Shown here piece after piece: positions 5,336-49,029 of a stretch of 64,000 bases of DNA. Position 1 is the stretch's first letter, and every line of letters begins with the position of its first letter. This DNA comes from Paenirhodobacter ferrireducens (GTDB taxonomy: Bacteria > Pseudomonadota > Alphaproteobacteria > Rhodobacterales > Rhodobacteraceae), in contig NZ_SAVB01000006.1 of assembly GCF_004022265.1 (NCBI RefSeq), positions 124,001 through 188,000 on the forward strand. The letters are read 5' to 3'. The notes below the pieces were generated by a model. The model worked only from the letters and a program-made list of their open reading frames with translations, was not told the DNA's origin and did no database searches. The translations under genes were made by a program, and so were the position numbers.

Positions 5336-5370
5336 TCGCGGGTGGGGGGCGGTGACCGCCCCCCTTCCGG

Positions 5371-7803
5371 TCAGAACCGGGCGCGGCGCAGGCGCAGCGC
5401 GTTCGTCACCACGAAGACCGAGGAGAAGGCCATCGCGCCCGCGGCCAGCATCGGCGACAGGCCCGGCCCGCCGAAGGGGCGCAGCACGCCCATGGCCACC
5501 GGGATCAGCGCGACGTTATAGGCGAAGGCCCAGAACAGGTTCTCGCGGATGTTGCGCATCACCGCGCGCGAGAGCCTGAGCGCACGTGCCGCGCCGCGCG
5601 GGTCGTCGCCCATCAGCACCACCTCGGCCGCCTCGATCGCGACATCGGTGCCGGTGCCGATCGCCAGCCCCACATCCGCCGCCGCAAGCGCCGGCGCGTC
5701 GTTGATACCGTCGCCGACGAAGGCCACGGCGCCTTTGCCGCCAAGCGCGTTCACCGCAGCGACCTTGCCCTCGGGCAGGACCTCGGCCTCCACCCGGGTG
5801 ATGCCGAGCCGCCGCGCCACCGCTTCGGCCGTGGGTTTCGCGTCGCCGGTGACAAGCGCCACCTCGACGCCCGCCGCCTGCAGCGCCGAGACCGCCTCGG
5901 CCGCGTGCTCCTTGATCGGATCGGCGACGGCCAGAAGCGCCATCGCCGCACCGTCGCGGGCAAGATAGATGGGGGTCTTGCCCTCGCCCGCGAGCGCCAG
6001 CGCCCGTGCCGCGAGAGGGCCGATGTCGATGCCCGCCTCGGTCATCGCGCGGGCATTGCCAAGCAGCACGGTCTTGCCGTCGACCTCGGCCGAGAGGCCG
6101 CGGCCGGGCAGGGCCTCGACCTTGCGCGCGCGGGGCAGGGGCAGGCCGCGGGCCTCGGCCGCCGCGACGATCGCGCGGGCGAGCGGATGCTCCGAACGCG
6201 CCTCGGGCGCCGCGGCGGTGGCAAGTGCGTCTTCCGCGGTGATGCCCGTGACCGGGATCAGCTCGGTGAGCTCGGGGTGGCCAAGGGTCAGCGTGCCGGT
6301 CTTGTCGAAGGCGAGGGTTTTCACCTCGGACAGGCGCTGCAGCGCGTCGCCGCGGCGGAACAGCAGGCCGAGTTCCGCGCCGCGCCCGGTGCCGACAAGG
6401 ATCGAGACCGGCGTCGCCAGCCCCATCGCGCAGGGGCAGGCGATGATCATCACCGAGATTGCCGCGACGAGGGCATGGGTGAAGCCCTGACCCGCCAGCA
6501 TCCAGAGCGCGAAGGTCAGCAGCGAGAGCACCATTACCGCCGGCACGAAGATGCGCGTCACCTTGTCGACCAGCGCCTGCACCGGCAGCTTCTGGCCCTG
6601 CGCCTCCTCGACCAGCGCGATGATGCGCGACAGCACGGTGTCGGTGCCGGTCGCGGTGACGCGGAAAGCAAGCGCCGTCTGCCCGTTCACCGTGCCGCCG
6701 GTGATCTCGGCGCCCGGGGTCTTCTCGACCGGGGCAGGCTCGCCCGTCAGCATCGATTCGTCGATCCAGCCATGGCCCTCGGTCACCAGCCCGTCGACCG
6801 CGACACGCTCGCCCGGGGTCAGAAGCACGATGTCGCCGGGCGCGAGCTCTTCGACCGGCAGCTCGACGGTGCCGTTTTCGCGCGCGACCCGCGCCGTCGC
6901 CGGGCGCAGCGCGACGAGTCGCGAGATCGCCTCGCCTGCGCGGCCCTTCGCCCGCGCCTCGAGCCAGCGGCCGACGAGGATCAGCGTGACGATCACCGCC
7001 GCCGCCTCGAAATAGACCACGCGGGCGGAGGCGGGGAGCAGCTCGGGCGCGACCGTGACCGCCGCGGAATAGAGGAAGGCAGCCAAGGCGCCCATGGCGA
7101 CGAGCGAGTTCATCTCGGGCGCGCCGCGCAGCAGCGCCGGGATGCCGATGCGCAGGAACACCCGGCCCGGGAAGGCCAGCACCAGCGCGGTGAGGACAAG
7201 CTGGATCCACCAGCTCGCGCGCTCGCCGATCGTGTGCATCACCGCCATGTGGAAGCCGGGGATCAGATGCGTGCCCATGGCCAGCACGAAGACCGGCAGG
7301 GTGAGCGCGGCCGAGATCAGCACCTGTCGCTTCAGCTTCGCCGCCTCCGCCGCCTGACGCTCGGCGACCGGCGCGGCGGGGGCATCGGCGGTGGCAACGC
7401 GCGCACCATAGCCCGCGCCCTCGACCGCCTTCACCAGCTCGGAGGGGGCAACGGCGCCCTGGGCATAGCCCACCTGCGCGGTCTGGGTTGCCAGATTGAC
7501 CGAGGCCTCGATCACCCCGGGCAGCGCGGTCAGCGCGTGCTCGACATGGCTGACGCAGCTCGCGCAGGTCATGCCGGTGATGTCGAGTTTCGCCTCGGCG
7601 CGGTTGACCGGATAGCCCGCCTTCGCCAGCGCCGCGGCGAGCGAAGCGGGGGTGGCCGGTGCCTCGAACTCGACCCGGGCCGAGCGCGCCATCAGGTTCG
7701 CCGTGGCGCTGGTCACCCCCGGCTCGGCGCTCAGGGCCCGCTCGACGCGGCCGGTGCAGGCACCGCAGTGCATTCCGTCGATGGTGAACGTGGTCTTGGA
7801 CAT
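5371..7803 (-). CDS. copA: copper-exporting P1B-type ATPase
   Basis: About 810 residues. Two N-terminal heavy-metal-binding domains carry GMHCGACTGRVERAL and GMTCASCVSHVEHAL. The core has the actuator loop ESMLTGEPAPVEK, the transmembrane CPC motif (ACPCAMGLATP), the phosphorylation site DKTGTLT and the hinge GDGINDAPAL. CPC with this architecture marks Cu(I) export across the inner membrane. The ATG at 7803 follows GGAGGT; the longer frame to 7926 is not used. No CueR/HmrR regulator gene is visible nearby, but another copper locus (DUF2946 and a TonB receptor) lies at 60.7-63.3 kb. Confidence 0.95.
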   Translation of the reverse strand: MSKTTFTIDGMHCGACTGRVERALSAEPGVTSATANLMARSARVEFEAPATPASLAAALAKAGYPVNRAEAKLDITGMTCASCVSHVEHALTALPGVIEASVNLATQTAQVGYAQGAVAPSELVKAVEGAGYGARVATADAPAAPVAERQAAEAAKLKRQVLISAALTLPVFVLAMGTHLIPGFHMAVMHTIGERASWWIQLVLTALVLAFPGRVFLRIGIPALLRGAPEMNSLVAMGALAAFLYSAAVTVAPELLPASARVVYFEAAAVIVTLILVGRWLEARAKGRAGEAISRLVALRPATARVARENGTVELPVEELAPGDIVLLTPGERVAVDGLVTEGHGWIDESMLTGEPAPVEKTPGAEITGGTVNGQTALAFRVTATGTDTVLSRIIALVEEAQGQKLPVQALVDKVTRIFVPAVMVLSLLTFALWMLAGQGFTHALVAAISVMIIACPCAMGLATPVSILVGTGRGAELGLLFRRGDALQRLSEVKTLAFDKTGTLTLGHPELTELIPVTGITAEDALATAAAPEARSEHPLARAIVAAAEARGLPLPRARKVEALPGRGLSAEVDGKTVLLGNARAMTEAGIDIGPLAARALALAGEGKTPIYLARDGAAMALLAVADPIKEHAAEAVSALQAAGVEVALVTGDAKPTAEAVARRLGITRVEAEVLPEGKVAAVNALGGKGAVAFVGDGINDAPALAAADVGLAIGTGTDVAIEAAEVVLMGDDPRGAARALRLSRAVMRNIRENLFWAFAYNVALIPVAMGVLRPFGGPGLSPMLAAGAMAFSSVFVVTNALRLRRARF

Positions 7804-7950
7804 GGGGCACCTCCGAAGCTTCACTTGGAGCGCACCCCGGCCCGGGTCAACCGGAACAGAAACATTCCCGAACTTGAATTTGTGTTGTGGCAATGCTAGC
7901 TGGAGCGAAAGCGCCTTCCAACCCATCCACCCCCGTCACGGAGTCCCCCC

Positions 7951-9853: not shown

Positions 9854-9930
9854 GGCTAGGTAGCTCAGCAGGTTAGAGCACGTGACTCATAATCACGGGG
9901 TCGGGGGTTCGAGTCCCCCCCTCGCCACCA
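9854..9930 (+). tRNA. tRNA-Met (anticodon CAT)
   Basis: A 77-nt cloverleaf: acceptor GGCTAGG/CCTCGCC, D arm GCTC...GAGC, anticodon stem CGTGA/TCACG with loop CTCATAA, T stem GGGGG/CCCCC with TTCGAGT, discriminator A and encoded CCA. The acceptor stem has one T-C mismatch at its fourth pair. CAT could also denote the lysidine-modified Ile tRNA, but an elongator Met tRNA is more likely. A broken integrase reading frame overlaps the 3' half on the other strand. Confidence 0.95.
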
Positions 9931-9967
9931 AAACTTCCCCCTTATCGTGAAGAGACGTCGCTGAATC
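9893..9967 (-). pseudogene. tyrosine integrase remnant, last codons (piece 3 of 3)
   Basis: Read leftward, this encodes a tail ending LVARGGLEPPTP and a stop inside the tRNA-Met, the familiar ending of integrases whose attachment site is a tRNA 3' end. When the two Mu-type insertions and one copy of each target duplication are removed, the frame continues without a stop from 57868 through 17848-17817 to here. The gene is therefore an interrupted relic of an island integrase. Confidence 0.75.
9963..9967. repeat. 5-bp target duplication GAATC, left copy
   Basis: GAATC directly precedes the TGTGG terminus at 9968; the identical GAATC directly follows the CCACA terminus at 17812-17816. Five bases is the target duplication made by MuA-type transposases. 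Confidence 0.9.
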
Positions 9968-10020
9968 TGTGGCGGAGCACCGGCTTTCGGACAACGGCGC
10001 ACCAGCTTTAGGATGGAAAT
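9968..10020. repeat. right-end terminal sequence of the satellite (two MuA-like sites)
   Basis: The first 25 bases match the prophage end at 17854 at 21 positions by eye. A GGCTT-type box starts at base 16 and an AGCTT-type box at base 37, the same offsets as in the prophage end. This two-box spacing resembles the closely spaced R1/R2 sites of Mu. Confidence 0.8.
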
Positions 10021-10084
10021 TTCTTCTCCCGCTGATTAGTGGCAGGGAAAACGTTCTTCCAATGGCAAAACCGCAGACCAAAGA

Positions 10085-10107
10085 AAAGGGGCCATGTCGG
10101 CCCCTTT
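10085..10107 (-). terminator. terminator of the satellite's leftward operon
   Basis: AAAGGGGCC and GGCCCCTTT form a perfect 9-bp stem with a 5-base loop; on the minus strand it is followed by TCTTT. It lies 35 bases beyond the last gene of the leftward operon. Confidence 0.8.
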
Positions 10108-10141
10108 GTTCACGGCTCTCGCCCTACCGTCAACCGTCTCC

Positions 10142-10492
10142 TCATGGCAGCGGATCTCCCTTCACCTTCCAGCCCTTGGCAATCCGTTTCGCCTTCCTCT
10201 TAGCCTCTCCTGCCGCTTTCCTGCGCCGCTTGCCCTCTTCGAGCAAGGCCGAGCACAGCGCCCCGTCAAACAAAAACGCGGCCCAATGATAGGCCGTCGC
10301 GCCGCGATATTCGCCATACCACTTGGCAGTGTTCTTCTCGAACCGCCAGCCATATGGCCCGGCGCGCTGTTCCTTGATCCAGCGGATCACGCCGCTTTCA
10401 GAGGTGCGATACCCGGGAATGCGATAGCGGCTCACCACCTCGGCGATCTGCCGGGCGGTGAACCAGTCGGTCTCATCATATTCCTGCGACAT
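10142..10492 (-). CDS. MuA-type DNA-binding-domain protein (satellite)
   Basis: About 116 residues. DWFTARQIAEVV near the start parallels FFTARELAEMA at the N-terminus of the prophage MuA. A WIKEQ...GWR segment and an AYHWAA segment follow, where Mu DNA-binding domains have a GW and a YHIS/FHVS strand. The C-terminus is a highly basic helix rich in Lys/Arg. No catalytic domain is present. ATG 10492 is preferred over the longer frame to 10573, which overlaps the upstream gene. Last gene of the leftward operon. Probably a DNA-binding regulator or end/operator competitor; the role is inferred. Confidence 0.7.
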   Translation of the reverse strand: MSQEYDETDWFTARQIAEVVSRYRIPGYRTSESGVIRWIKEQRAGPYGWRFEKNTAKWYGEYRGATAYHWAAFLFDGALCSALLEEGKRRRKAAGEAKRKAKRIAKGWKVKGDPLP

Positions 10493-10499
10493 GCGCGCC

Positions 10500-11054
10500 T
10501 CACGCCAGACCGAACCGGACAAGAACCTGCGCCGCCTCTTCAACGCTTGGCAAGGCCGTTCCTTCCGGGACATGATGCGGCAACTCGCGCCATGCGCGGG
10601 CGAGGTCGCCGCCTGTTTCGTTCCGCATCAGCCGCATCAGGGGGAGCACCCATGGCGGTGCGGTGTTCACCGGCATGGGCGGCGCTGGCGCTGGCGGGGC
10701 GGGCAGATCGAACCATTCCCCGGCCTCGGCCTCGATCGGCGGCAGGTCGAGGATGCGCGCCAGAAGGGCGTCAAACGCCCGCGATGGCAGCGCCGATACG
10801 TGGAACAGATACCGCCCATTCGACCATCGGCATTCCCACCCTTCCTGACGGGCCTTGCGGGTGATGGTGCTGCGGTGCGTGGGCAGGCCCGGCAGGCGCA
10901 GGGCCTCAAGCTCGGCTGCGGCGAACCACTCTTGCAGCTCGAAATGTTCCCGCAGCACCCGCACCAGCATGGCTTCAAGGAAGGCCATACGCCGTTGCGC
11001 ATAGGCCCAGGTATCGGCGTCAACTGCCACCGTCAGGTCAAAACGCTCATCCAT
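10500..11054 (-). CDS. Mu DNA-binding-domain protein (satellite)
   Basis: About 184 residues. The middle segment EWFAAAELEALRLPGLP, then THRSTITRKARQEGWE and a YLFHVSALP strand closely follow the Mu repressor/transposase N-terminal winged-helix pattern seen in the prophage MuA (TARELA...TERGVRARAKRDGWA...GLEYHISLLP). The rest is Pro/Ala-rich with no recognisable catalytic residues. It overlaps the upstream gene by 8 bases and ends 7 bases before the next start, so translation is probably coupled. It could bind satellite or helper ends, or operators. Confidence 0.75.
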   Translation of the reverse strand: MDERFDLTVAVDADTWAYAQRRMAFLEAMLVRVLREHFELQEWFAAAELEALRLPGLPTHRSTITRKARQEGWECRWSNGRYLFHVSALPSRAFDALLARILDLPPIEAEAGEWFDLPAPPAPAPPMPVNTAPPWVLPLMRLMRNETGGDLARAWRELPHHVPEGTALPSVEEAAQVLVRFGLA

Positions 11055-11613
11055 CGCGGCCCCCTTGGACAGTAAGGCCCCGGGCGCGCAGTTCGGCCAC
11101 CAGTGCCTCGGTCGGCAGATCGGCCAGCGCGCGCCGTTGGCTGGGGCGCAGGCGGGGCGCGCGATCCGCCTTTCCCGCGACCATAGCGACGGCCTCGCGC
11201 AGGCTGGCGGCGCGGCCCGTGTCGAGCAGATCGAGCGCGCGGGCCTGCGCCTTGGGCGCAAGCTCGGACAGGGCTTTCAGGTGGGTCATCTTGTCCGCGC
11301 GCGGCGCGGCCAGAAGGCGGGCTCGGCTATCGGGCATCAGGTTGGTGAAGATCATGACATACCAGTTGATGCCCTTCTTTGACGTTTGTTCTCTCTTCGC
11401 GACGAAGGCTGCGAAGCCGCCCGGTTCGTCAGCTTTCAGCCTGCCCCCCACCGACGACTCCGGGTAAATCTCGACATAGGCCGCCTTGGCCTCGCCAAGC
11501 TTGCAGGCGCGTTCAATCGGGCGCATCTTCGGGCCGAACTTGGCCAGTTCCATCAGCACGCGCACAAGGCGCGGCTCCGGCCCCTCGCGCCGGGTGTCCC
11601 GTTTCACCGCCAT
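11047..11613 (-). CDS. FlhC-like putative transcriptional regulator (satellite)
   Basis: About 188 residues. The N-terminal half (LVRVLMELAKFGPKM, then RPIERACKL, then a GG-containing loop and INWYVMIFTNL) resembles in order and spacing the FlhC family, including relatives on conjugative plasmids. I see no clear zinc-binding cysteine cluster, so the match is weak. The start at 11613 lies one base after the stop of the upstream gene (TGA at 11617-11615), implying a tightly coupled pair. Role inferred as DNA-binding control of the satellite or helper. Confidence 0.55.
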   Translation of the reverse strand: MAVKRDTRREGPEPRLVRVLMELAKFGPKMRPIERACKLGEAKAAYVEIYPESSVGGRLKADEPGGFAAFVAKREQTSKKGINWYVMIFTNLMPDSRARLLAAPRADKMTHLKALSELAPKAQARALDLLDTGRAASLREAVAMVAGKADRAPRLRPSQRRALADLPTEALVAELRARGLTVQGGRDG

Positions 11614-11614
11614 G

Positions 11615-12574
11615 TCAATGCACCTTCCGGCGACCACGCGGCGCGGGGGTGGGCTCTTCCTCGGGGCTTTCGGGCTCTTCGCTGACCTCGGCCAGAAGCA
11701 TCCCCACCACGCGCGCGACCGAGGCCGAAGGCAGGCCGCTTTCGTCGGCGATCCGGGCAATCGTCTCGCTCATGCCGCCGGTTTCGGGATCGTCGCCCAC
11801 CACGGCTTCCAGCGTCTCGCGCAGCTTCCCGGCGCTCGGCCCCTGCGCGATCCGCTCTGCCGCCTGTTCCCGCATGTCGGCATCGGCGCGGCCCGCCTCC
11901 TGCATTTCGGCGATCTGGCCCTTGTAACCGGCCCGGCGCGGCATGTGGGTCAGGACCGCTTCCAGCACCTCGTGCAGGCGGTCCAGTTCGATCCCGGTGG
12001 CATCGCTGACGCGGCCCCAGATTTCGCCATGGGCCAACGCGCGGTTGATCTGCATCGCCAGCAGATGCGCGGCCATCCCCTCGGCCGGATGCCCGCCCCT
12101 GTCGCGATAGGCTTCCCCGGCGTGATCCTCGCCGGTCAGGACGAACATCACGCGGGCCACGTCTGCCCGGTCAACGCAGGCGCGGGCGGCGATCATGTCC
12201 AGATCGTGCCACGCTGGGCGGCTGGCCTCGGCCAGAACGGCGGTGCGGATGATCTCGGCAATGCGATCCTCGGCGCTGGGGGCCGGGTCTTGCAGGGCGG
12301 GGCGGTGGGCGTCCTCGATCTCGGCCAGCGCGGTTTCGGCGCGGTCAACCCGGGTGATCAGGCGGAACACATCGCTGTTGATCTCGGCCAGATCATCGAC
12401 ATGACGGCGCAGGAGCTGACCGATCCCGTAGCCGATCAGCGCATCGACCCCGCCCGCATGGGTTTCGTGCATCCGGTCGAGCAGGAAGTTGAAGGCGCGC
12501 AGGGCGTGATAGGTATCATCGACCTGCGTCACGAAATCGGACAGATTCAGGTCGGGGGCAAGTTCGGTATTCAT
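11615..12574 (-). CDS. hypothetical satellite protein, first gene of leftward operon
   Basis: About 319 residues, acidic and rich in Ala/Glu/Asp, largely helical by composition, with a basic C-terminal tail (PRGRRKVH). I do not recognise a family. Its position immediately before an FlhC-like gene invites comparison with FlhD-FlhC pairs, but the sequence does not show FlhD features. The ATG at 12574 is preferred over the longer frame to 12586. The gene faces the regulatory region at 12575-13407, whose nearest dyad (12583-12655) could autoregulate this operon. Confidence 0.75.
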   Translation of the reverse strand: MNTELAPDLNLSDFVTQVDDTYHALRAFNFLLDRMHETHAGGVDALIGYGIGQLLRRHVDDLAEINSDVFRLITRVDRAETALAEIEDAHRPALQDPAPSAEDRIAEIIRTAVLAEASRPAWHDLDMIAARACVDRADVARVMFVLTGEDHAGEAYRDRGGHPAEGMAAHLLAMQINRALAHGEIWGRVSDATGIELDRLHEVLEAVLTHMPRRAGYKGQIAEMQEAGRADADMREQAAERIAQGPSAGKLRETLEAVVGDDPETGGMSETIARIADESGLPSASVARVVGMLLAEVSEEPESPEEEPTPAPRGRRKVH

Positions 12575-13407
12575 GGTCGCATCCACTGGTAAGCGCTTTT
12601 CAAGGCGCGAAATCCGCGAACAGCGCGGAAGCCGGGAGTTGAAAACCGCCAGTGGACGGCAGCAGGGCCTTTAGGCGCGAACGCCTTGGACATACGCCTT
12701 GCCCTCCCGGCCACACCATGTGCGACCGCCTCCGGCAAGGCCGGATATGCTGCGCCGTTCTGATCAGGAAAATGCGTGGGAAATGATTTCCCACCCTTCG
12801 CACCGATCACGGTGGCGCGACCCACCACTGGTAAGAGTTTTCAAGCTCCACTTGCGACGATGCGTCAAAAACGCCTGCGCCGCAAGTGGATTTGACGGGG
12901 GAGGTGGGCAAAGTGTGCTAAAAGCCAGACTTCGGCCACCGACCAGAGTCCAGAGATTGGACTCTGGTCGCAACCGCTATCAGTCATGTGCCAAAAGCCA
13001 GAGTCTGGCTTCTGGCAGAACATTTGGCGAACGAAAGGCCCGTCCGGATGCGCCCGGCCGGGCCTTTCCGGCGTCTTCGGTGGCGTTGCACCCAGAACCG
13101 CCACGATCTGCCGTTTCCTGTTCGATCAGGCGAAAACGGCTGACCTTCTCTCGCTTGAAGGCCAGCCGTTCCGGCATCATCGACCGAGGGGCGTGGGACG
13201 GACCCCCGGCGATCTGCCTGCATTGCCAAAGTGCAGCAATGCCATCCGCAGTCAGAGCAACACGCGGTTTGGAGAACCCGAAACTTCCCCGCTGCGCCCG
13301 GCCATCATCCCCGAGCACCCGCCCGCATCCCCCGGACCATGTCCGGGGGACCGGCTTTTTTCACAGGACATAGTCCTGTGAACGGGTCTGAATGGAGGGT
13401 TTCAAGG
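12575..13407. promoter_or_regulatory. satellite control region between divergent operons
   Basis: No convincing gene. It holds a 21-22 bp direct repeat starting CCACTGGTAAG and ending TTTTCAAG (12583-12604, 12824-12845) with an inverted partner (TTGAAAA at 12639, CCAGTGG at 12649); a 10-bp dyad TCCACTTGCG/CGCAAGTGGA (12847-12856, 12881-12890); an 11-bp dyad GACCAGAGTCC/GGACTCTGGTC (12941-12951, 12959-12969); paired AAAAGCCAGA boxes near 12920 and 12995, the second overlapping GCCAGAGTCTGGC; then two hairpins at 13329-13380. This looks like multi-operator control of divergent transcription. A minus-strand frame at 12980-13318 is possible but unlikely. Confidence 0.65.
13329..13380 (+). terminator. 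tandem hairpins before the satellite Mor-like gene
   Basis: CCCCCGGAC-CAT-GTCCGGGGG (13329-13349) is followed by ACCGGC and six T, then CACAGGAC-ATA-GTCCTGTG (13362-13380). The first stem is identical to hairpins at three transcription-unit boundaries in the prophage. It may terminate upstream transcription and/or bind a regulator just before the activator gene. Confidence 0.7.
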
Positions 13408-13884
13408 ATGACTGCACGGATCGACCGCATCGACTTCCCGGACGAGAGCAACGCCCAGCTCATCAAGGACATGATCCTTGACGAGCTCGGGCATTATGTC
13501 TTCGACCGGCTGTGCGATGCCCTGGGCGGCCAGACCATCAATCTCCCGAACCGCCCCGAGACAATCCATGAGGGGCATTTCCTCGCCCAGGCGATCGGGC
13601 TGGAGAATGCCCGCCTGATGGCGGCAACGGTCGGCTATGCGGCCTATTACGTGCCGCTTCCGCGCCGGGGCAGCGAACCGGAAGCCGATCCGGTCGATCT
13701 GGTGCGCAAGGGGCTTGCGAACTGGGAAATCGCCAAGGTGATCGGCTTCACCGAGCGCCACGTTCGCCGCCTGCTGGCGAGCCGGGGCGTCAACAATCCC
13801 AACCGCAAACCGCGCAGTCTGCCCGCCCTTCTCGGCGCGCCGTCCGGCGGCGGAACGCCCGTCCAGTCGGGCGGCTTCGCCTGA
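13408..13884 (+). CDS. Mor/C-family transcription activator (satellite)
   Basis: About 158 residues. The order matches Mor of Mu-like phages: an N-terminal dimerisation region (MILDELGHYVFDRLCDALGG, then INLP), a linker, and a C-terminal helix-turn-helix reading LVRKGLANWEIAKVIGFTERHVRRLL. It is a diverged paralogue of the prophage activator at 45623-46021. The ATG at 13408 follows AAGG; the longer frame to 13231 covers regulatory DNA. It precedes and probably activates the capsid cassette starting at 14016. Confidence 0.85.
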   Translation: MTARIDRIDFPDESNAQLIKDMILDELGHYVFDRLCDALGGQTINLPNRPETIHEGHFLAQAIGLENARLMAATVGYAAYYVPLPRRGSEPEADPVDLVRKGLANWEIAKVIGFTERHVRRLLASRGVNNPNRKPRSLPALLGAPSGGGTPVQSGGFA

Positions 13885-13891
13885 ACACCTC

Positions 13892-13977
13892 GCAGGAGCG
13901 ATTTTGACGCCGGTTTGACGTGGCCTCTCGCCTTTTCAGGTGTCCGGGTGGCCAGAGACCATCAAAGCCGCTCCTGC
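13892..13977 (+). promoter_or_regulatory. shared 85-bp intergenic element, satellite copy
   Basis: Bounded by GCAGGAGCG and CGCTCCTGC (perfect 9-bp inverted arms), with TTTTGACGCC and TTTGACG boxes inside. The core matches the prophage element at 38434-38519 (27 of 29 bases in the best stretch by eye). It lies between the activator and capsid genes, where a late promoter would be expected. Confidence 0.6.
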
Positions 13978-14015
13978 GCCAGATTTTCCCTACCTGAGCA
14001 ACACGGAGTTCCCCC

Positions 14016-14963
14016 TTGCCAGTCCTCAACACCAGAACGGCCCGCGTCGTCGATCCGATCCTCACCACGATCGCCCAGGGCTATCGCCACAACGAACGGG
14101 TCGGGCATATCCTGTTCCCGGCCGTCCCCGTCCCGGCACGGGGCGGCACCGTCATCCGGTTCGGGCTGGAAAGCTTCGTCGATTACAAGGCGATCCGTGC
14201 GCCCGGCGCGAACACGGCGCAGATCCAGTTCGGCTATCAGGGCGAGCCCTTCGCGCTGAAGCAATATGCCCTGGATGTTCCCGTGCCCCGTGAGTTCATG
14301 GAAGATGCGCAGACGGTGCCTGGCATCGACCTTGGCAAGCGCGCGGTCAACACGGCCATGAACAGCCTTACGCTGTCTCTGGAAATCGAACAGGCCGCAC
14401 TTGCCACCGATACCGCCCGCTATGGCGCGAACAACAAGCTCGCGCTCTCGGGTGCGGATTGCTGGAATGACGGCGCGAGCGATCCGATCGCGGACATCGA
14501 GGCCGCGAAAGATCAGGTGCGCACCACCTGCGGCGTCGAGCCGAACCGTATGGTCGTTGCCAATGTCGGCTTCAAGGCGCTCAAGCAGCACCCGAAGATC
14601 ATCGAACGGTTCAAGTATACGACCGCCGAATCTGTCACGGCCAAGATGCTGGCGGGCCTGTTCGATCTGGAAGAGCTGGCCGTGGGCAAGACCACCTACG
14701 TCACCGAGACCGACGCCACCCCTCCGGTGTTTCATGAGGCCTGGGACAACGTCGCGGTGCTGGCCTACACGCCGACGCAGGACGCGGCGATGGAAAACCC
14801 CTCCTTCGGCTACACTTACACCCTGCAAGGGCACCCGTTCGTGGAGAAGCCCGAATGGAAGAGCGAGGTGAAGTCGTGGGTCTATGGCGTAACCTATGAA
14901 CGTGTTCCGGTGATGACGGGCATCGCCTCGGGCTTCCTGTTCACCGGCATCACGGGGGCATGA
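14016..14963 (+). CDS. major capsid protein (satellite copy)
   Basis: 315 residues, collinear with the prophage capsid at 35739-36698: both begin LNTRTA, share PGIDLG followed by AVN, NxKLALxGAD around residue 140, ALKxHPKI around 195, LEMLA/TAKMLAG, and SFGYTYxL near residue 265, and end in GFLF. Overall the two are clearly diverged, unlike gpG. The start is TTG at 14016 with GGAG upstream. First gene of the rightward cassette; its stop overlaps the next start (ATGA). Confidence 0.88.
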   Translation: MPVLNTRTARVVDPILTTIAQGYRHNERVGHILFPAVPVPARGGTVIRFGLESFVDYKAIRAPGANTAQIQFGYQGEPFALKQYALDVPVPREFMEDAQTVPGIDLGKRAVNTAMNSLTLSLEIEQAALATDTARYGANNKLALSGADCWNDGASDPIADIEAAKDQVRTTCGVEPNRMVVANVGFKALKQHPKIIERFKYTTAESVTAKMLAGLFDLEELAVGKTTYVTETDATPPVFHEAWDNVAVLAYTPTQDAAMENPSFGYTYTLQGHPFVEKPEWKSEVKSWVYGVTYERVPVMTGIASGFLFTGITGA

Positions 14964-15838
14964 CCATGGCAGGTCCGCAATCCGGGGCAATCCCGATCCT
15001 GCGCGCAGGCCCGATCTGCACCGCGATCGGGCAGGTGCCGTCAAAAATCAACGAGGGTGACCTGTTCGCCCTCGCCGCCAACTACAAGGCGGACAGCGCC
15101 ACCATGTTCGCCGCCCCCGCATCGTTCGGTGTTCCCCCGAAGGCTTCGTTCATCCGCGCGCTTGTGGTCGAAAATGGCACGCTCTTTGCCATCCCGCGCC
15201 CGGGTGGCAACGCGTCCTTCGCGGCGGGCATGTCGATGGGCAGGCCGATCACCTTCGCCTCTCTCTACGCGCCGAAGTCACCGGACAACCCCGCACCAGG
15301 CGAAATTCACCTTCACAGTGTCAGCTTCTTCGACGACCTGCCCGCGCCGGGAAAGGGCAGTATCCCGAACGGCGGAACGGCGATCCTGCAAGGCGATATC
15401 GCTGCCTTCGCGTCCAGCCCGTCAAGAAAACAGGTGTCCGCGCGCGAAGCCGAGCTGGAACAGCTTCTGTTTGCGCAGAAGGTGGAGAAGCTGGTGGACG
15501 AAGGGCGTCTTCTCCCCGTGCTGAAGGATGAGGTCATCAGCTTCTGCGCCGGGATTGACCAGCGCCATACCGTCAGCTTCGCCTCGGGTGAAACCATCCC
15601 GGCCAAGGAATGGCTGTTCTCCTTCCTGGAGCGCATGCCGAAGGTGGTGAGCTTCGGGGCCATGGACCTCGGCCCGGACCCGTTCACGAATGCCCCGGCA
15701 GCGGCTGCCAACATGCCCAAGGGGCACGAGATCGACCGGACCCAGAATGAGCTTGCCGCCCGCGCCCAGCAGATCATGCGCCAGAACCCGGACATGCCCT
15801 TCGCCGACGCCGTGGTGATCGCCCAGAACGGACGTTGA
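14960..15838 (+). CDS. protease/scaffold-like capsid protein (satellite, copy 1)
   Basis: 292 residues. The C-terminal half (AREAELEQLL, then VDEGRLLPVLKDEV and VSFASGETI) matches the scaffold half of the prophage protease (AREAELTERE, VDEGRLLPVLRDKV, VSFAAGDAP). The N-terminal half weakly follows the protease domain; by eye the presumed nucleophile Ser is kept (ASLYAP versus MSFFPP), while the His of PRHIGF is displaced. It may be a mainly scaffolding version. ATG at 14960 overlaps the capsid stop, suggesting coupled, stoichiometric expression. Confidence 0.75.
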   Translation: MTMAGPQSGAIPILRAGPICTAIGQVPSKINEGDLFALAANYKADSATMFAAPASFGVPPKASFIRALVVENGTLFAIPRPGGNASFAAGMSMGRPITFASLYAPKSPDNPAPGEIHLHSVSFFDDLPAPGKGSIPNGGTAILQGDIAAFASSPSRKQVSAREAELEQLLFAQKVEKLVDEGRLLPVLKDEVISFCAGIDQRHTVSFASGETIPAKEWLFSFLERMPKVVSFGAMDLGPDPFTNAPAAAANMPKGHEIDRTQNELAARAQQIMRQNPDMPFADAVVIAQNGR

Positions 15839-15889
15839 CACCGTGAGGTCACCCGCAAGGTGGCCTCGCCTTCAACCTGTGAGGTCAAG

Positions 15890-16624
15890 ATGGGACGCTC
15901 CCCCGGGTATATTTTCGGCGGTGACTTTGACCGTTGCACGCCGCACGCGATCACCGGAAAGGTGCATTTCGCGACCGATGTTCAATGTGTCGGCCCTCTC
16001 ACGATCTATCGTGCCAGCGCAGCTGGCGGCGCGGCTCCGGTCATCACCGCAGAGGTGCTGCGTCAGATCGCTTCGACCTATAACGAGCAGCGCGAAACCG
16101 CGCCTGTGCCGCTCGTTCTGGGCATCCCCAAGATAGACGATCCGGCCTATGGTTGGGTGGCATTGCTCGAAGCACGGGGTGATACCCTCACCGCTGATTT
16201 CGGGTCGGTCTGGCCCGAGGTCGCCAAGGCGCTGAAATCCGGTCAGCGCGGCACGATCGACGTTGATTTCTTCCCGCCGGGCGCGCCGGGAAACCCGGCC
16301 CCCGCTCAATGGTCCCTGCGCCGTGTCACCGTCTTCGGGTTGGATGATCTGAAACTTCCGGCCCTGCCGAAGCCGATTGTGACCCCTCAATGCGGCCCGA
16401 GCCCTTCGGTCTCGACAGAGACGCCACTACCACGCCCGCCGGTCACTCCGCCTCAAAGCGTCAAGGACGCGATCCCCGTCAGTGTTTTTGACGGCATGAA
16501 CTTGCCACGCGGCTTCGATGCTGATCCGGAACAGGCCGAACTCTACGCCCGCATTCTGCGCATCCAGCGCGAGAAGACCGTCACCTTCGCCGAAGCGGTG
16601 ACCATCGCAGCGAAATGGAACTAA
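15890..16624 (+). CDS. protease-like protein, probably inactive (satellite, copy 2)
   Basis: About 244 residues. It follows the N-terminal domain of the prophage protease (LTIYRA.., VLRQIASTYN, APVPLVLGIP, YGWV, then VDFFPP, NPAP and VTVFG) but lacks most of the coiled scaffold half. At the places corresponding to the Ser of KVSMSFFPP and the His of PRHIGF it has Asp (TIDVDFFPP) and Arg, so catalysis is probably lost. The C-terminus (LYARILRIQREKTVTFAEAV) resembles the last helix of the prophage protease. ATG 15890 follows GAGG. Confidence 0.72.
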   Translation: MGRSPGYIFGGDFDRCTPHAITGKVHFATDVQCVGPLTIYRASAAGGAAPVITAEVLRQIASTYNEQRETAPVPLVLGIPKIDDPAYGWVALLEARGDTLTADFGSVWPEVAKALKSGQRGTIDVDFFPPGAPGNPAPAQWSLRRVTVFGLDDLKLPALPKPIVTPQCGPSPSVSTETPLPRPPVTPPQSVKDAIPVSVFDGMNLPRGFDADPEQAELYARILRIQREKTVTFAEAVTIAAKWN

Positions 16625-16674
16625 ACACGTATCCTCTGATCTTGATGTGGTCGTATATTAAAGGAGCAACGACG

Positions 16675-17277
16675 ATGCCAGAAAATGGCTTTACAATCGA
16701 GGTGAACGACCGGGAGGCCAGCGAGGCGCTCGCGGCGCTGCTGCGCCGCATGGAAGAGCGGCGCGGGTTTTACCAAAACGTAGCCGAACTCCTCGCGAGC
16801 TCGTCCCGGGAGAATTTCCGCAAGCAGACGGCCCCCAGCGGCACTCCCTGGGCGAAGCTCAAGGCCGCGACGATCCGGGAGCGCACCCGCAAGGGACAGC
16901 TCCCTCTCACGATCCTGAACACGAATGGCGTGAAGGACGGCATCCACCTGCAAGCTGCTATCTCGCAGGATGCCGACAATGACGCGGCCCGGGTCGGTGT
17001 TCTCGATCAGGATCCCGTCCGCCACTATGCTGCAATCCATCAGTTCGGCGGCACGATCCCGATCCCGGCGCGCAAGGGCCGCATCTATCGTCACTACGAT
17101 CCGACCACCGGAGTGACCGGCCGGAAATTCGTCTCGCCAAAATCCGACGGCGCGCGCGCGACCGAGGTCGATATCGCGGGTTACATGGTCACCATGCCTG
17201 CCCGACCCTACCTCGGGGTCTCGGCCGAAGACGAAATGGAGATCATGCTGCTTGCCGAGGACTGGATCGGCCTCTGA
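16675..17277 (+). CDS. virion morphogenesis protein gpG-like (satellite)
   Basis: 200 residues, phage virion morphogenesis family (Mu gpG, P2 gpS type), involved in head completion or tail joining. It is over 80% identical by eye to the prophage gpG (38529-39140), including IEVNDREASEALAALL, IRERTRKGQLPLTILNTNGV and AARVGVLDQDP. The DNA is also nearly identical in places, far closer than the capsid pair. ATG 16675 follows AAGGAGC. Last gene of the capsid cassette. Confidence 0.92.
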   Translation: MPENGFTIEVNDREASEALAALLRRMEERRGFYQNVAELLASSSRENFRKQTAPSGTPWAKLKAATIRERTRKGQLPLTILNTNGVKDGIHLQAAISQDADNDAARVGVLDQDPVRHYAAIHQFGGTIPIPARKGRIYRHYDPTTGVTGRKFVSPKSDGARATEVDIAGYMVTMPARPYLGVSAEDEMEIMLLAEDWIGL

Positions 17278-17703
17278 TCCGTGATGGGGCCACTAGCGTC
17301 AAAGCGCCCCCCCCATAGGCATGGGAAAGCATCCTGACTTATCCGTGATTTGAAGAATATTCTCCCGATCCTGCCTTGTATCTACGTTCCGACCTTGGTC
17401 AGACCTATGATGCTGTTTTTACCTCTGATTTTCCGAGGTATCACTTTGACTTATAACAATAATTTTAATGTCTGACGCAATCTGACCAGACCGGAACAAG
17501 ATTTCCGACCTTGGTCAGACCTTGGCGCTCCGCATCGCATCTTTAGATGGGCATTCTGAGCCCCCATAAGTTTCCATGCTATGCGTTTTCTACTAATGTT
17601 GTCATCATGTTGCCTGTTGATAGGTGATTGTTGCCTCGATGTTTAGAACGTGATCGTTCGATGATAGGTGAAGCGCCAGTTTTGGGCGGTTCCTTACATT
17701 TTT
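17278..17703. promoter_or_regulatory. satellite left-end noncoding region
   Basis: No gene seen and AT-richer than its surroundings. It contains two direct copies of TTCCGACCTTGGTCAGACC (17386-17404, 17503-17521). The second forms an imperfect hairpin with 17481-17496 around loop CAAGAT, the same loop and position class as the perfect hairpin at 57337-57376 in the prophage. A packaging, operator or small-RNA role is possible. Confidence 0.55.
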
Positions 17704-17811
17704 GTCCGAAAGCACTTTTCGCCAGAAGCGGCACTTTTCTGTTCGTTCTCAACGCGTTGCATGCTTTTTTCTGGGGTTATGCTTTTGTCCGGAAGTTACT
17801 ACCCCTCCACA
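17704..17811. repeat. left-end terminal sequence of the satellite
   Basis: Read inward from 17811, the first 25 bases are identical to the prophage left end at 57678. A CTTCCGGAC box ends at base 25, a CGAAAAGTG-like box ends at base 80 and a CTTTCGGAC box ends at base 108, at exactly the same offsets as in the prophage. The gap between the first and second boxes resembles L1 versus L2/L3 of Mu. Confidence 0.85.
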
Positions 17812-17816
17812 GAATC
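17812..17816. repeat. 5-bp target duplication GAATC, right copy
   Basis: Identical to 9963-9967, directly outside the CCACA terminus. Confidence 0.9.
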
Positions 17817-35738: not shown

Positions 35739-36698
35739 TTATACCGCGGCCGCGCCGGCGTTCTGGAACAGGAAGCCGGCATCGGCGCCGACCAGATAGG
35801 GCTTGCGCTCGGTCGTGGTCGGATAGATCCACGACTTCGACGGGCGGTCGTAATAGGGCTGCTCGACCTGCGGATAGCCCATCAGCTCATAGGTGTAGCC
35901 ATAGGACGGAACCATGTAGTTGCCGCCGGTGGTGGGCACCCAGGCGAGGATCGCATCGTCGCCCCAGACATCGGTGGCGGCCACGCTGTCGTCGGCCGTC
36001 TCCGGCAGGTAGACCGCGTCGCCGGTGACCACGCGCTCGAGCTGGAAATAGGCCGCCAGCATCTCGAGCGTGATCGAATCCTTGGAGACGTACTTGAACT
36101 GCTCCTTGATCTTGGGGTGGTTCTTCAGCGCCTTCGCGGCCGTGGGGCCGAGCATCAGCGTGTTCGGCCGGCGCCCGGTGAACCGCCGGATCATCTCGGA
36201 CGCATCACCGATGTCTTCGCCCGGATCGCTGGTCGCACTGGTCCAGCGGTCGGCACCGGCCAGCGCCAGCTTGTGGTTGGCGTCATAGTTCGCTGCGGTG
36301 CGCGCGATCTGCGCGGCCTCGTATTCGAGGCCGAGATCGACCACATCGAGGACCATGTTGACCGCATTCGACCCGAGATCGATCCCCGGAACCTTCTCGG
36401 CCTCCTGCTGGTGCTCGATCGGCACGACGCCCTCGAGCGCGTCCTGGACGAGCGACACCGTGCCGGCGTCGAAGCCGTACTGCACGCGCTTCACGTTGGT
36501 GCCCGGCGCACGGCGGGTGTTCAGCTTGCGGAAGGCTTCCTTGCCGAACTTCAGGACCGACATCGAGCGGTTGGGGATCGAGACGCGCGGGAAAAGGACG
36601 TGCGACACGAAGGAGGGGTTGCGATAGCCGCGCGCATGGTTCGACAGGATCGGGCTGATCACCTGGGCCGTGCGCGTGTTGAGAATGGTCTGGGGCAT
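35739..36698 (-). CDS. major capsid protein (prophage)
   Basis: 319 residues, the same fold family as the satellite capsid (14016-14963). Starts MPQTILNTRTAQVISPIL; landmarks are VPGIDLGSNAVN, NHKLALAGADRW, ALKNHPKIKEQFKYV and YGYTYELMGYPQVEQPYYD. It differs from the classical Mu gpT in sequence and looks like the type found in many Mu-like phages of Rhodobacteraceae. Preceded by DUF2190 and protease genes. Confidence 0.9.
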   Translation of the reverse strand: MPQTILNTRTAQVISPILSNHARGYRNPSFVSHVLFPRVSIPNRSMSVLKFGKEAFRKLNTRRAPGTNVKRVQYGFDAGTVSLVQDALEGVVPIEHQQEAEKVPGIDLGSNAVNMVLDVVDLGLEYEAAQIARTAANYDANHKLALAGADRWTSATSDPGEDIGDASEMIRRFTGRRPNTLMLGPTAAKALKNHPKIKEQFKYVSKDSITLEMLAAYFQLERVVTGDAVYLPETADDSVAATDVWGDDAILAWVPTTGGNYMVPSYGYTYELMGYPQVEQPYYDRPSKSWIYPTTTERKPYLVGADAGFLFQNAGAAAV

Positions 36699-38528: not shown

Positions 38529-39140
38529 TCACGCCCCGGGTTCGAGGCCGAGCCAGTCTCCGGCCAGCAGCAGGATCTCCGTCTCATCATCGGCCGAGAC
38601 ACCGAGGTAGGGGCGGGCGGGCATCGTGACCGTATAGGCCGGGATATCGACCTCGGTCGCCTTGGCTCCCTCGGACTCGGGCGACACGAATTTCCGGCCG
38701 GTCACCCCGGAGGTCGGATCGTAATGACGATAGATGCGGCCCTTGCGCGCCGGGATCTGGATAGTGCCGCCGAACTGATGGATTGCCGCATAATGGCGGA
38801 TTGGATCCTGATCGAGCACACCGACCCGCGCCGCGTCATTGTCGGCATCCTGCGAGATCGCTGCGGCCAGGTGAATGCCCTCCTTCACCCCGTTCGTGTT
38901 CAGGATGGTGAGAGGGAGCTGCCCCTTGCGGGTGCGCTCCCGGATCGTCGCGGCCTTGAGCTTCTCCCAGGGGATGCCGCTGGGGGCCGACTGCTTGCGG
39001 AAATTCTCCCGCGCCGAGTCTGCCAGCAGCTGCGCGACGGTCTTGTAGAAACCGCGCCGCTCTTCCATGCGGTGCAGCAGCGCCGCGAGTGCCTCGCTGG
39101 CCTCCCGGTCGTTCACCTCGATCGAAAACGTGCGGTCCAT
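38529..39140 (-). CDS. virion morphogenesis protein gpG-like (prophage)
   Basis: 203 residues, virion morphogenesis family. It shares long identical blocks with the satellite gpG (16675-17277). Placed after gp30, before the late-promoter-like region, as in Mu. Confidence 0.92.
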   Translation of the reverse strand: MDRTFSIEVNDREASEALAALLHRMEERRGFYKTVAQLLADSARENFRKQSAPSGIPWEKLKAATIRERTRKGQLPLTILNTNGVKEGIHLAAAISQDADNDAARVGVLDQDPIRHYAAIHQFGGTIQIPARKGRIYRHYDPTSGVTGRKFVSPESEGAKATEVDIPAYTVTMPARPYLGVSADDETEILLLAGDWLGLEPGA

Positions 39141-39250: not shown

Positions 39251-40873
39251 TTACTTCCTCGGTCGCGACCAGACGAGCTTTCCGCCCCGGCGGCGATTGA
39301 GCAGCGCGAGATCCGGGTTCCCCTTCTTGTCGGTCGTGTTGTAGGCGGTGATTTCCTGCCACCACCGACGACCGACCTCGAAGACCACCATGAGCCCGGA
39401 TTTCCCATCGGTGCGGATGTAGCGCCGATCGACGGTCAGCACTTCCGCTCCCGTCTGTCGGTTGACCTTTCGCGCGACCCCGACCCAGATTTCATCCGGG
39501 TCAAGAAGCGCTTCCGCCAGCAGCGGCGTAAGGGATGCCCGATCCCTCTTTCCCACCTTCCATGCGCCCGTCGCCGTCTCGCGAAACAGCTCATCCGAGA
39601 TCGGCAGGGTGACACCGGTCGGGTCGGTCCAGGGCACCGCGTGGCCAATCGCGGCGCCGAACGGCTTGAGGAAGGCCGTGACGTAGTCCTCATCGCGCAC
39701 ATTGAGCGGCAGCGGCGTCGCGGTGAACGGCTTTGCGGCGGCGACCAGATCAGCGATCGGCTCGGGCGTATCGATCTGCACTGCATGGCGCCCGTCTGGC
39801 GTCAAACCACCGGCCTCCTCCTCGAGCTTTGACGGCACCATGCCGCGCTCCCAGAGATTTCCCGGCTGATAGTCCCAGCCAAGGCCGATCCCCTGCGGCA
39901 TCTGCACCGTGCGCTGGTTGGTCCGATCGAGCACGCTGCGCATGATGTCCGCGGGTGGAATCTGGCCCCACCGCGGCTGCTGCATGGCGCGCCGCTCGGA
40001 CATCGCACGGACGCCGCAGGAACACAGCCAGTCGTTCGGCGGGAAATGGATGTCCCACCACGGGTCGTCATGGCGCGCGAGCAGACCGTCCCAAGCGACA
40101 TGCATCGGCCGGGGCTGCAGCGGCGTCCGGCTTTCACCGTGGATATACTGCCACCATGGCTGCAGCCGGACCACGTCAGGGTCTCGCATCATGGCAAGGC
40201 GGCCCGCCATGTAGCTCGTGCGCACGTTGGTGTCGAAAATCGTCCGGATCCGCCATTCGCGGCCGCCGTTGTAGGACCAGCCGTATTTCTCGACGAGCCG
40301 GTCAAAATCAGCGGCGAAGGACTTGTATCCGCCGCCGCCATCGACAGCATCCAGAATGGCCTGGTGAAACTCCTCCGCCATGGCAAGATCGGTGACACCC
40401 GCCACGACGAACTCGCGGTCATGGTCGCCGAACATCTTGTCGGTCCAGACCTTCGATGCCGCCGGCCGCTTCTGCTTCAGGAAGTCGATCTGCGGCTGGA
40501 AATTGAAGAGGATCCCCTTGTCCGCAAACTCGGCGCTCGGAGGCTGCAGGTCTGGCGCGACGAACCAGGGGGCATAGAAGCTGGTCAGCTCCTCCTCGTC
40601 CAGATCGAGAAAGACCGCCTCGCGCCCCTCCCAGGCCGCCAGTTCCGTCGCCGATCCGATCAGCTTGCCAAACGCCTCTGGTGTCCAGCTGGCAGCGAGG
40701 TCGAGCAGCCCGCGAGCAGCAGCGTCAAAGCTCTCCGCCCGCTCGATCACCTCGCGGATCGCAGAGATCCGTGCTTCGATCAGCGGACGTGCCGCCTGCG
40801 TCGCCTGCGCCGCGATCCCGGCTGGCCGGTCATCGACCGCGTAGGAGCAGCAGGGGCAAGGCGGAGCGCTCAC
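39251..40873 (-). CDS. head morphogenesis protein (Mu gp30/SPP1 gp7-like) with toxin-like C-terminus
   Basis: 540 residues. The N-terminal two-thirds is a MuF/gp7-type minor head protein (IRTIFDTNVRTSYMAGRLA, then WQYIHGESRTP, then HFPPNDWLCSCGVRAMSE). The last ~120 residues (LDPDEIWVGVARK, RRYIRTDGKSGLMVVFEVG, LALLNRRRGGKLVWSR) resemble phage-associated barnase/EndoU/colicin-like (PBECR2-type) nuclease domains often fused to MuF. An ejected effector or interbacterial function is plausible. Four-base overlap with the portal gene. Confidence 0.85.
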   Translation of the reverse strand: MSAPPCPCCSYAVDDRPAGIAAQATQAARPLIEARISAIREVIERAESFDAAARGLLDLAASWTPEAFGKLIGSATELAAWEGREAVFLDLDEEELTSFYAPWFVAPDLQPPSAEFADKGILFNFQPQIDFLKQKRPAASKVWTDKMFGDHDREFVVAGVTDLAMAEEFHQAILDAVDGGGGYKSFAADFDRLVEKYGWSYNGGREWRIRTIFDTNVRTSYMAGRLAMMRDPDVVRLQPWWQYIHGESRTPLQPRPMHVAWDGLLARHDDPWWDIHFPPNDWLCSCGVRAMSERRAMQQPRWGQIPPADIMRSVLDRTNQRTVQMPQGIGLGWDYQPGNLWERGMVPSKLEEEAGGLTPDGRHAVQIDTPEPIADLVAAAKPFTATPLPLNVRDEDYVTAFLKPFGAAIGHAVPWTDPTGVTLPISDELFRETATGAWKVGKRDRASLTPLLAEALLDPDEIWVGVARKVNRQTGAEVLTVDRRYIRTDGKSGLMVVFEVGRRWWQEITAYNTTDKKGNPDLALLNRRRGGKLVWSRPRK

Positions 40874-48448: not shown

Positions 48449-49029
48449 GGCACATCCTCCCCCAGATTGAGGTCGCGCAGAACCTGCTTCGTCGGTTGGT
48501 AGACGGGGGCTTCCCGCCCGGTGTTCTTCGCCAGTGCGAAGAGCTTGTAGCCGTTCGATGTCGGTGCAGTTCCCGCCACGCGGCGCGGCAGCTCAATCAC
48601 ATATCCAGCGCGCACGAGGACCGTCAGATAGCGCCTGACGTTGTCGATCGGGTTGCGATCATCGCCATTGGCTGCGTCGCAGACGAGGTCACCGACTGTG
48701 AAGCGCCCCCTGGTCCGCATCGAGAGCCAGGCGCGCTGGCGAAACGTATTCTGGATGACCTTGCAGCCCGTATGTTTTCCGCGCGGCCCGGATGTGATCA
48801 CCTCGCCGCGTTCTGCTGCCGAGATACCTTCGTCTGTCAGCTTGTAGCAGCCGACCTCCATCCGCATCAGGTAATCCCGCCGCAGCAGGGCTGCAGCGGC
48901 GTCAGAGACCTGACGGCGCGTGAGGTCGAGTTCTTCTTCCAGCTGGGAGATCGTACGGCAGGACCCGTCGCAAAGGGCCGTGAGCAGCGCCGTGGGAGCT
49001 TTTCCAGGGTGGTAGCGATCGACCATCAC
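48433..49029 (-). CDS. winged-helix early phage protein
   Basis: 198 residues with two possible winged helices (TISQLEEELDLTRRQVSDAAAALL and PIDNVRRYLTVLVRAGYV). It directly follows muB with a 4-base overlap. Possibly DNA-binding; function unknown. Confidence 0.72.
   Translation of the reverse strand: MMVDRYHPGKAPTALLTALCDGSCRTISQLEEELDLTRRQVSDAAAALLRRDYLMRMEVGCYKLTDEGISAAERGEVITSGPRGKHTGCKVIQNTFRQRAWLSMRTRGRFTVGDLVCDAANGDDRNPIDNVRRYLTVLVRAGYVIELPRRVAGTAPTSNGYKLFALAKNTGREAPVYQPTKQVLRDLNLGEDVPCTRA

Follow-up and report, generated by a model that had tools for sequence, protein, structure and literature searches.

Capsid-forming phage-inducible chromosomal islands (cf-PICIs) are defined by portal, terminase and head-completion genes of their own, and P4-like satellites carry a primase/helicase and P4-type capsid-size genes. 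As the available parts of two papers set out, phage satellites, satellites with capsid genes, helper-embedded satellites and miniature inverted-repeat transposable elements (MITEs) are already known (PMC11389934, PMC10111431). Gram-negative PICIs (GN-PICIs), for example, are small satellites that often carry a capsid gene, and some of them sit inside their helper (PMC10111431, in part). The satellite families named in the review sections available to us are P4-like satellites, PICIs, cf-PICIs, PICI-like elements (PLEs), phage-inducible chromosomal minimalist islands (PICMIs), virion-encapsidated integrative mobile elements (VEIMEs) and Tycheposons, none of which is described there as using a transposable phage (PMC11389934). 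Here we analyze an element at positions 9968-17811 of a 64,000-nucleotide stretch of the Paenirhodobacter ferrireducens genome (contig NZ_SAVB01000006.1, positions 124,001 to 188,000; this whole stretch is called the window). The element is likely to be a member of a family of satellites of Mu-like phages, which would be transposed in trans and packaged by their helpers while contributing head proteins of their own.

The window element is a discrete insertion of 7,844 bp that begins with TGTGG at 9968, ends with CCACA at 17811 and has a perfect GAATC duplication on both flanks, which confirms the ends and target duplication given in a first-pass annotation of this DNA. A tRNA-Met gene ends 37 bp upstream of the element, and a complete Mu-like prophage, the presumed helper, begins 42 bp beyond it. 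These features are arranged as follows:

9854-9930, + strand: tRNA-Met (CAT), a host gene
9963-9967, no strand: left GAATC copy
9968-10016, + strand: late-side terminus, TGTGGCGGAGC..., containing a pair of subterminal repeats (CGGCTTTCGGAC / CCAGCTTTAGGA type)
17704-17811, - strand: early-side terminus, reading TGTGGAGGGGTAGTAACTTCCGGACA... inward from 17811, 80% over 108 bp to prophage positions 57571-57678
17812-17816, no strand: right GAATC copy
17854-57678, - strand: complete Mu-like prophage, presumed helper, 39,825 bp, duplication TGCGG

The GAATC duplication alone is weak evidence, because TGTGG...CCACA pairs with a duplication arose by chance at a rate of 0.4 per shuffled window (60 first-order shuffles). 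The left terminus of the element agrees with the late end of the prophage at 21 of 26 nt, and its right terminus is identical to the prophage early end at 26 of 26 nt, the 108-bp match at this end having an E value of 9e-18. Elsewhere in the window, the best match to the same 26-nt terminus is 18/26 on the + strand and 17/26 on the - strand. The right-end identity and the 108-bp match therefore mean that the element and the prophage share termini in the same orientation. We regard this identity as the decisive evidence, of a kind that could not arise by chance, and the right end is the counterpart of the transposase-side (early) end of the helper. The CGGCTTTCGGAC / CCAGCTTTAGGA repeats are candidate binding sites for the transposase.

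The 10 open reading frames (ORFs) of the element were scanned against protein families. That at 12574-12828 had no match at all; the others are designated e1 to e9:

10142-10573, - strand: e1, 143 aa, in the same position as transposase fragments in relatives
10500-11054, - strand: e2, 184 aa, the hallmark of the family, with the Mu DNA-binding domain PF02316 and a match to phrog_310 at positions 3-74 only
11047-11610, - strand: e3, 187 aa, ParB-like, matching the C-terminal part of phrog_3264
11615-12586, - strand: e4, 323 aa, no known family above cut-off
13408-13884, + strand: e5, Mor-like activator of late transcription, phrog_836
14016-14963, + strand: e6, major capsid protein, phrog_1005 (E 4e-94) and PF03864
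14966-15838, + strand: e7, protease/scaffold paralogue, matching the C-terminal part of phrog_976
15890-16624, + strand: e8, second protease-family protein, matching the N-terminal part of phrog_976
16675-17277, + strand: e9, gpG-like virion morphogenesis (connector-class) protein, PF05069

Genes e1 to e4 run leftward, and the Mor-like activator, the capsid, the protease/scaffold pair and gpG run rightward. Family matches (phrog_836, phrog_1005, phrog_976 and PF05069) thus bear out the regulators, Mor-like activator, capsid, protease/scaffold-like and gpG-like genes of the first-pass annotation. Its list of missing genes held in part: the scan of the 10 ORFs detected no lysis, tail, portal or large-terminase family and nothing like a catalytic transposase, but e2 proved to be a transposase-type domain without the catalytic core. 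Neither a full transposase with an rve/DDE core and a MuB-like AAA protein nor any primase/helicase or P4-type capsid-size family was found among the same ORFs; there was no site-specific integrase either, and the duplications differ between insertions. Three weak matches were not counted: that of e1 to a minor tail family (E 0.03), that of e1 to the Terminase_7 small subunit, whose 21.5 bits fall short of the cut-off of 27, and that of e5 to a small-terminase family (E 0.005). An AlphaFold model of e2 (6 sequences) has a mean predicted local distance difference test (pLDDT) score of 73.7, with about 90 in the winged-helix part; no match in PDB reached E 0.001, the best being 1tns, the Mu transposase DNA-binding domain (E 0.014, template-modelling score by target 0.65). 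The e3 protein is 29% identical to the ParB-like protein of the prophage over 135 aa.

The neighbouring prophage also encodes a portal, a gpF protein and a tape-measure protein of 1,412 aa. The genes that bear on the comparison are:

35763-36689: prophage capsid
38544-39128: prophage gpG
49029-49799: prophage AAA protein
49840-52353: prophage transposase, with Mu DNA-binding and Mu-transpos_C domains and a sub-cut-off rve match

On the + strand, the head genes of the window element run from capsid through protease/scaffold to gpG. This is the reverse of the prophage, RcapMu and YPCBV-1, where the order (in the prophage, on its - strand) is gpG, protease and capsid, so that the reversal noted in the first-pass annotation stands. 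The gpG genes of the window element and the prophage share 87% DNA identity, suggesting an exchange between the satellite and its helper; the gpG proteins of five further satellites or remnants are 33-43% identical to that of the prophage. As a separate observation, the gpF-like protein of the prophage (39254-40873) ends in a nuclease-like domain of the PBECR2 type (PF18810, E 2e-27).

We searched for e4 and e7 in 394 genomes of the family (393 genera) and for e2 in the same number of family genomes, in 18 genomes of the window's genus, in 4 of the genus of Tabrizicola sp. SY72, in 367 of the class and in IMG/VR; capsids were searched in genome contigs and IMG/VR. The e4 marker was dropped: it matched 30/394 genomes, strongly only the window's own and that of SY72, and the 28 weak matches (E 3e-6 to 1e-3), nearly all in very long frames, were ignored. 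Including the window element, six complete elements of 5.6-8.3 kb were found, all six with perfect 5-bp duplications, so the unit has further insertions in other genomes, whose absence the first-pass annotation had named as refuting its proposal. The other complete elements, the partial ones and the decayed pieces are:

L047 7301-13851: Tabrizicola sp. SY72 (G121), 6,551 bp, duplication GCCCC
L050 6488-12816: metagenome-assembled genome (MAG) UBA1943, 6,329 bp, duplication AAATC
L208 3187-11471: IMG/VR, 8,285 bp, duplication GCAGA
L210 90-8013: IMG/VR, 7,924 bp, duplication TAGTC
G248 contig C60: 5,565 bp, the whole contig being exactly one element, duplication AACAG
L053: Gemmobacter MAG, partial, the contig ending inside the capsid
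G397: partial, the contig ending before Mor
L207 and L209: partial, incomplete metagenome contigs
L048 (G363) and L049 (G343): decayed pieces
G248 contig C52 (L141 ~286-2440): decayed satellite with a truncated e2 and no capsid-gene matches, downstream of tRNA-Phe

In G248, the last 77 bp of the element open both contig C40 and contig C7, and its first 77 bp close contig C16. AACAG stands on both sides at the C16 and C40 junctions and the C7 flank is different; G248 therefore holds at least two copies. Stand-alone e2 genes occurred in 3/394 genomes of the family draw (G000, G121 and G248), in 2/18 of the window's genus (G000 and G397) and in 2/4 of SY72's genus (G121 and G411), and in the class draw of 367 genomes none was found beyond the window's own genome. 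In the other 20 e2-matching genomes of the family draw, the matching frames were between 300 and 1,003 aa long, a single one of them being under 685, and the 14 others of the class draw had frames of at least 658 aa, that is, of transposase size. The satellite family is therefore real but uncommon in these draws. The e4 protein has relatives in L053, L208 and G397 and finds a match in SY72 over 76 residues.

These relatives bear on whether the window element is a defective deletion derivative of a Mu-like phage, a natural mini-Mu with no life cycle of its own. Its ends, Mor, capsid and gpG are all Mu-like, a catalytic transposase was not detected, and decayed relatives exist (L048, L049 and C52 of G248), as this explanation would have it. 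We nevertheless consider it improbable, given the similar layout of six complete elements that each have their own duplication, a capsid-gene order reversed relative to the phages examined, satellite capsids that cluster away from those of the local helpers and the copies in G248. We reject simple decay of the neighbouring phage on the recurrence and the capsid grouping; the first-pass annotation had named an origin as a decayed part of a full phage as refuting, and the recurrent layout and the separate capsid group speak against it.

Helper genes were found in the genomes of the window, SY72, UBA1943 and G248 (L208, L210 and L053 are outside this count), and a full helper phage adjoins the satellite in the window, UBA1943 and G248. 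Both ends were available for four genomes, and in all four the satellite's early end has its best match in the helper of the same genome. Read as an order within each row of the comparison, identity over the first 100 nt of own pairs was 0.79 in the window, 0.97 in SY72, 0.92 in UBA1943 and 0.65 in G248, and the best non-own pair, the SY72 satellite with the window prophage, reached 0.65. At 30 nt, the G248 satellite scored 0.90 to its own helper, with which its first 26 nt are identical, and at most 0.53 to the others. The near-identity of the SY72 satellite and helper extends for at least 250 bp, although the two lie on different contigs. The G248 prophage has CAAAA at both ends, and beside the L208 satellite there is a second, end-like terminus, most of whose phage lies off the contig. 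Separately, the UBA1943 satellite is nested about 30 bp inside phage-end-like sequence that continues beyond it (L050 6458-6488 and 12817-12860). Since the satellite ends copy those of the helpers, the helper transposase (MuA-like) and AAA activator (MuB-like) would be expected to transpose the satellite in trans.

Nine e1/e2 proteins were scanned against PHROGs, in which the transposase profile phrog_310 spans 696 positions. Six of the nine matched it, only at about positions 3-74, 100-169 or 485-575 (window e2, 3-74; G248 e2, 5-73; SY72 e1, 100-169; G397 e1, 5-73; L208 e1, 7-68; UBA1943 e1, 485-575, weak, E 0.0035); window e1, L053 e1 and G248 e1 did not match. By BLASTP, UBA1943 e1 matches the transposase of its own helper at 49-117 and 593-687, skipping the core, and G248 e1 had no match to transposases (best E 0.3). 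In window e1, just 34 residues (E 7e-6) match the DNA-binding region of the transposase encoded by the UBA1943 helper, and the e1 of the Gemmobacter element resembles that of SY72. Most of these satellites therefore encode non-catalytic pieces of a transposase, and we infer that the e1/e2 pieces act as end-binding regulators.

The capsid, a protease/scaffold protein and the Mor-like activator are present in 6/6 complete elements, with the capsid gene full-length and at least one protease/scaffold gene in each. The e2 gene occurs in 5/6 and was not found in L210; gpG occurs in 3/6 (the window, UBA1943 and, as a partial match, L208). G248 and L210 also encode a cement/scaffold-type protein, and the Mor-like gene of G248 sits after the protease gene, not before the capsid. 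In the otherwise tail-less L210 we noticed a tape-measure gene (5348-7936, 862 aa, phrog_58 E 1e-25), the only tail gene found in any complete element. In L207, the capsid and protease are followed, from about 3.1 kb onward, by a frame of 867 codons that is still open where the contig stops; it may be similar to a tape-measure gene, and such genes hint at satellite control of tail length. SY72 has a 355-aa gene where others have gpG (L047 12213-13280), with no Pfam or PADLOC family; PADLOC found no defence system among five proteins scanned.

The proteins without a known family, e4 and the SY72 cargo gene, together with the sub-cut-off match of e1 to a small terminase family, leave some room for a small phage that is self-sufficient through a transposase or terminase not recognised as such. 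This explanation is very improbable: end similarity tracks the local helper, the transposase domains detected are all non-catalytic, and a tail module would not fit into 5.6-8.3 kb, the L210 tape-measure being the sole tail gene.

The window capsid is 44% identical to the prophage capsid, 67-69% to most satellite capsids and 57% to those of G248 and L210. In a tree of 26 capsids, all eight satellite rows fall on one side of a branch with support 87/89 (87% of bootstrap trees), and the helper capsids, RcapMu and RR1-B lie on the other side of a 100/99 branch; the satellites therefore did not take their capsids from present helpers. The ratio of nonsynonymous to synonymous divergence (dN/dS) was 0.15-0.36 in the 15 of 21 satellite capsid pairs with unsaturated dS, and by this measure the satellite capsids are maintained by purifying selection. 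The single protease/scaffold protein of SY72, UBA1943, G248, L208 and L210 keeps the motifs GHP..D.PA.GW and [VI]S..[LF][FY], which we take to be catalytic by analogy with prohead proteases.

A tRNA gene lies just upstream of 9/10 satellite insertions with known context. Beyond the tRNA-Met of the window, these are Asn in SY72 (107 bp), Arg in UBA1943 (133 bp), Arg and Thr in G248 (57 and 43 bp), Gln in L210 (55 bp), Met in L208 (192 bp, in the opposite orientation), Phe at the decayed C52 of G248 (~56 bp) and Cys in Gemmobacter, where the element end was not located. The remnants G363 and G343, at contig ends, were excluded from this count; the 11-12 kb of sequence retrieved for each yielded no tRNA. 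With 46 tRNAs in 4.07 Mb, the window genome has about 0.23% of its length in the 200-bp zones downstream of tRNAs. In the window, UBA1943 and G248, the prophage occupies the same locus as the satellite. A general habit of tRNA targeting among Mu-like prophages of the family was not supported by 10 other prophages in 9 genomes: no tRNA lay within 400 bp of any of the three best candidate late ends of each, only G047 (duplication AACAA) having given a convincing end pair and most true ends not having been located. A tRNA was present somewhere in the fetched end regions of 5/10 of these prophages, near chance. Insertion hotspots near palindromes are known for transposable phages of Pseudomonas aeruginosa, according to the part of PMC5977238 seen, and our search of open-licence PubMed Central papers turned up no tRNA-flank targeting by a Mu-type system.

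Taken further, we lean toward a distinct satellite lineage that would use the helper transpososome for replication and tRNA-flank integration, the helper terminase, portal and tail for its particles, its own heads, and core-less transposase fragments as controllers. Transposition in trans would leave the 5-bp duplications, and the tRNA-flank preference would probably be set by the helper transposition machinery. After helper induction, the Mor-like activator of the satellite would switch on the capsid, the protease/scaffold and, in some elements, the gpG genes. The Mu packaging signal lies close to the early (transposase-side) end. Packaging had been placed at the left end in the first-pass annotation; it is the right end (17811) that matches the helper early end, where Mu-type packaging is expected, and the placement has to be reversed. 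Starting from this early end, the helper terminase would load DNA into heads that contain the capsid protein of the satellite, and the helper portal and tail would complete the particle. The e2 protein, and e1 in several elements, would probably bind the shared ends or an operator, biasing transposition or repression toward the satellite.

Several observations weigh against a helper-packaged satellite with heads of its own. The 87/89 branch of the capsid tree is below the support level that we starred, two of its eight satellite rows (L207 and L209) come from incomplete contigs, and the full phage YPCBV-1 is the sister of the satellite capsids (86/82). The near-zero G248 values of the end comparison stem from free end gaps, and the outer ends of the UBA1943 prophage have no matching duplication (CAAAG vs CCATT). 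The G397 insertion is away from any tRNA, in what we take to be an IS91-type transposase gene, and no clean empty site was found: the close relative G046 has the tRNA-Met with neither element and diverges soon after. No gpG was found in SY72, G248 or L210, and L210 has only Mor, capsid, protease/scaffold and the end type in common with the other satellites. In the window, e7 and e8 both lack the GHP and VS motifs seen in related proteins, so that, with putative catalytic motifs degenerate, this copy may be impaired or rely on the helper protease. Finally, GN-PICI capsid genes are reported, in the part of PMC10111431 available, not to be needed for transfer; a capsid gene therefore need not mean own capsids.

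The main alternative is accordingly a helper-mobilized satellite whose capsid cassette interferes, either through mixed or defective helper heads that lower the yield of the helper or change head size or through plain helper exclusion, and makes no particles of its own. The degenerate e7/e8 motifs would fit it, as would the redirection of helper capsid size by Staphylococcus aureus pathogenicity islands (SaPIs; PMC12409344, in part), and the dispensable GN-PICI capsid genes make it a real option. We nonetheless hold it to be rather unlikely, since the protease motifs are kept in five other elements, a full-length capsid under purifying selection and at least one protease/scaffold gene occur in all six, and a short fragment would do for interference.

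With RcapMu/B3-type phages (RcapMu, RR1-B and the window prophage), the satellites share TGT...ACA ends, 5-bp duplications, a Mor-type activator, Mu-type capsid, protease/scaffold and gpG families, and the Mu DNA-binding domain. They differ in having no detected catalytic transposase, MuB, large terminase, portal or tail sheath/tube, in the reversed capsid-gene order and in their size of 5.6-8.3 kb against ~39 kb. Like cf-PICIs, they have their own capsid and protease-family genes and are expected to need helper tails; unlike cf-PICIs, they have no integrase, large terminase, portal or head-completion set that we could find, gpG is the sole connector-class gene, and their helper is a transposable phage by whose transposition they would spread. 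As in SaPI/P4 size redirection, a small genome would presumably need a small or altered head, but the satellites encode a complete capsid and protease/scaffold rather than a factor that redirects helper capsid size.

The UBA1943 satellite, inside the terminal ~30 bp of an adjacent phage end, resembles the helper-embedded PICIs described in the available part of PMC10111431. GN-PICIs as described there have an integrase and a primase/ori, neither detected here, in place of transposon ends. The satellites are also like MITEs and other non-autonomous transposons ("hitchers" in the part of PMC11389934 seen) in having shared ends recognised by another element's transposase. Unlike MITEs as treated there, they would be expected to pass between cells, since they combine regulators and a cassette of virion genes with a presumed packaging end. 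The open-licence literature that we searched contained no satellite of a transposable phage. The novelty suggested in the first-pass annotation survives to that extent; a capsid gene in a satellite is not new (PMC10111431, in part). The satellite family appears to be new and its kind known, the mobilization principle not having been found described in the literature searched.

A further feature of the satellites is a leader that precedes e4 and whose sequence core and helices are conserved:

12587-12745, - strand: leader upstream of e4

It is present in five satellites, always on the - strand (besides the window, L138 4870-5025, L140 2213-2345, L208 6605-6765 and L050 8502-8665). Letters change on both sides of its helices between satellites, as judged by eye from helix lists and not by covariation statistics, and one helix crosses two others, a possible pseudoknot. 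Compared with shuffles (z -1.4 to -3.0), its folding energy is only modestly lower. In IMG/VR, 113 stretches contain the core ATGTCCARGGCG-n-GCCNAAA; among the 45 viewed, all but ~5-6 look alike by eye, usually before an ATG. No Rfam family matched at the gathering threshold, and sRNA-Xcc1 gave a weak full-length match (25.6 and 34.7 bits, cut-off 53). The leader is possibly an undescribed or under-modelled class of phage leader RNA.

The helper-satellite pairs in G248, SY72 and UBA1943 make the satellite reading directly testable. If it is true, the satellite would combine a MITE-like, trans-mobilized transposon with virion parasitism, and would offer a natural system for how a single transpososome, packaging start and tail can serve two elements. 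The satellites also raise the possibility of tRNA-flank targeting by a Mu-type system.

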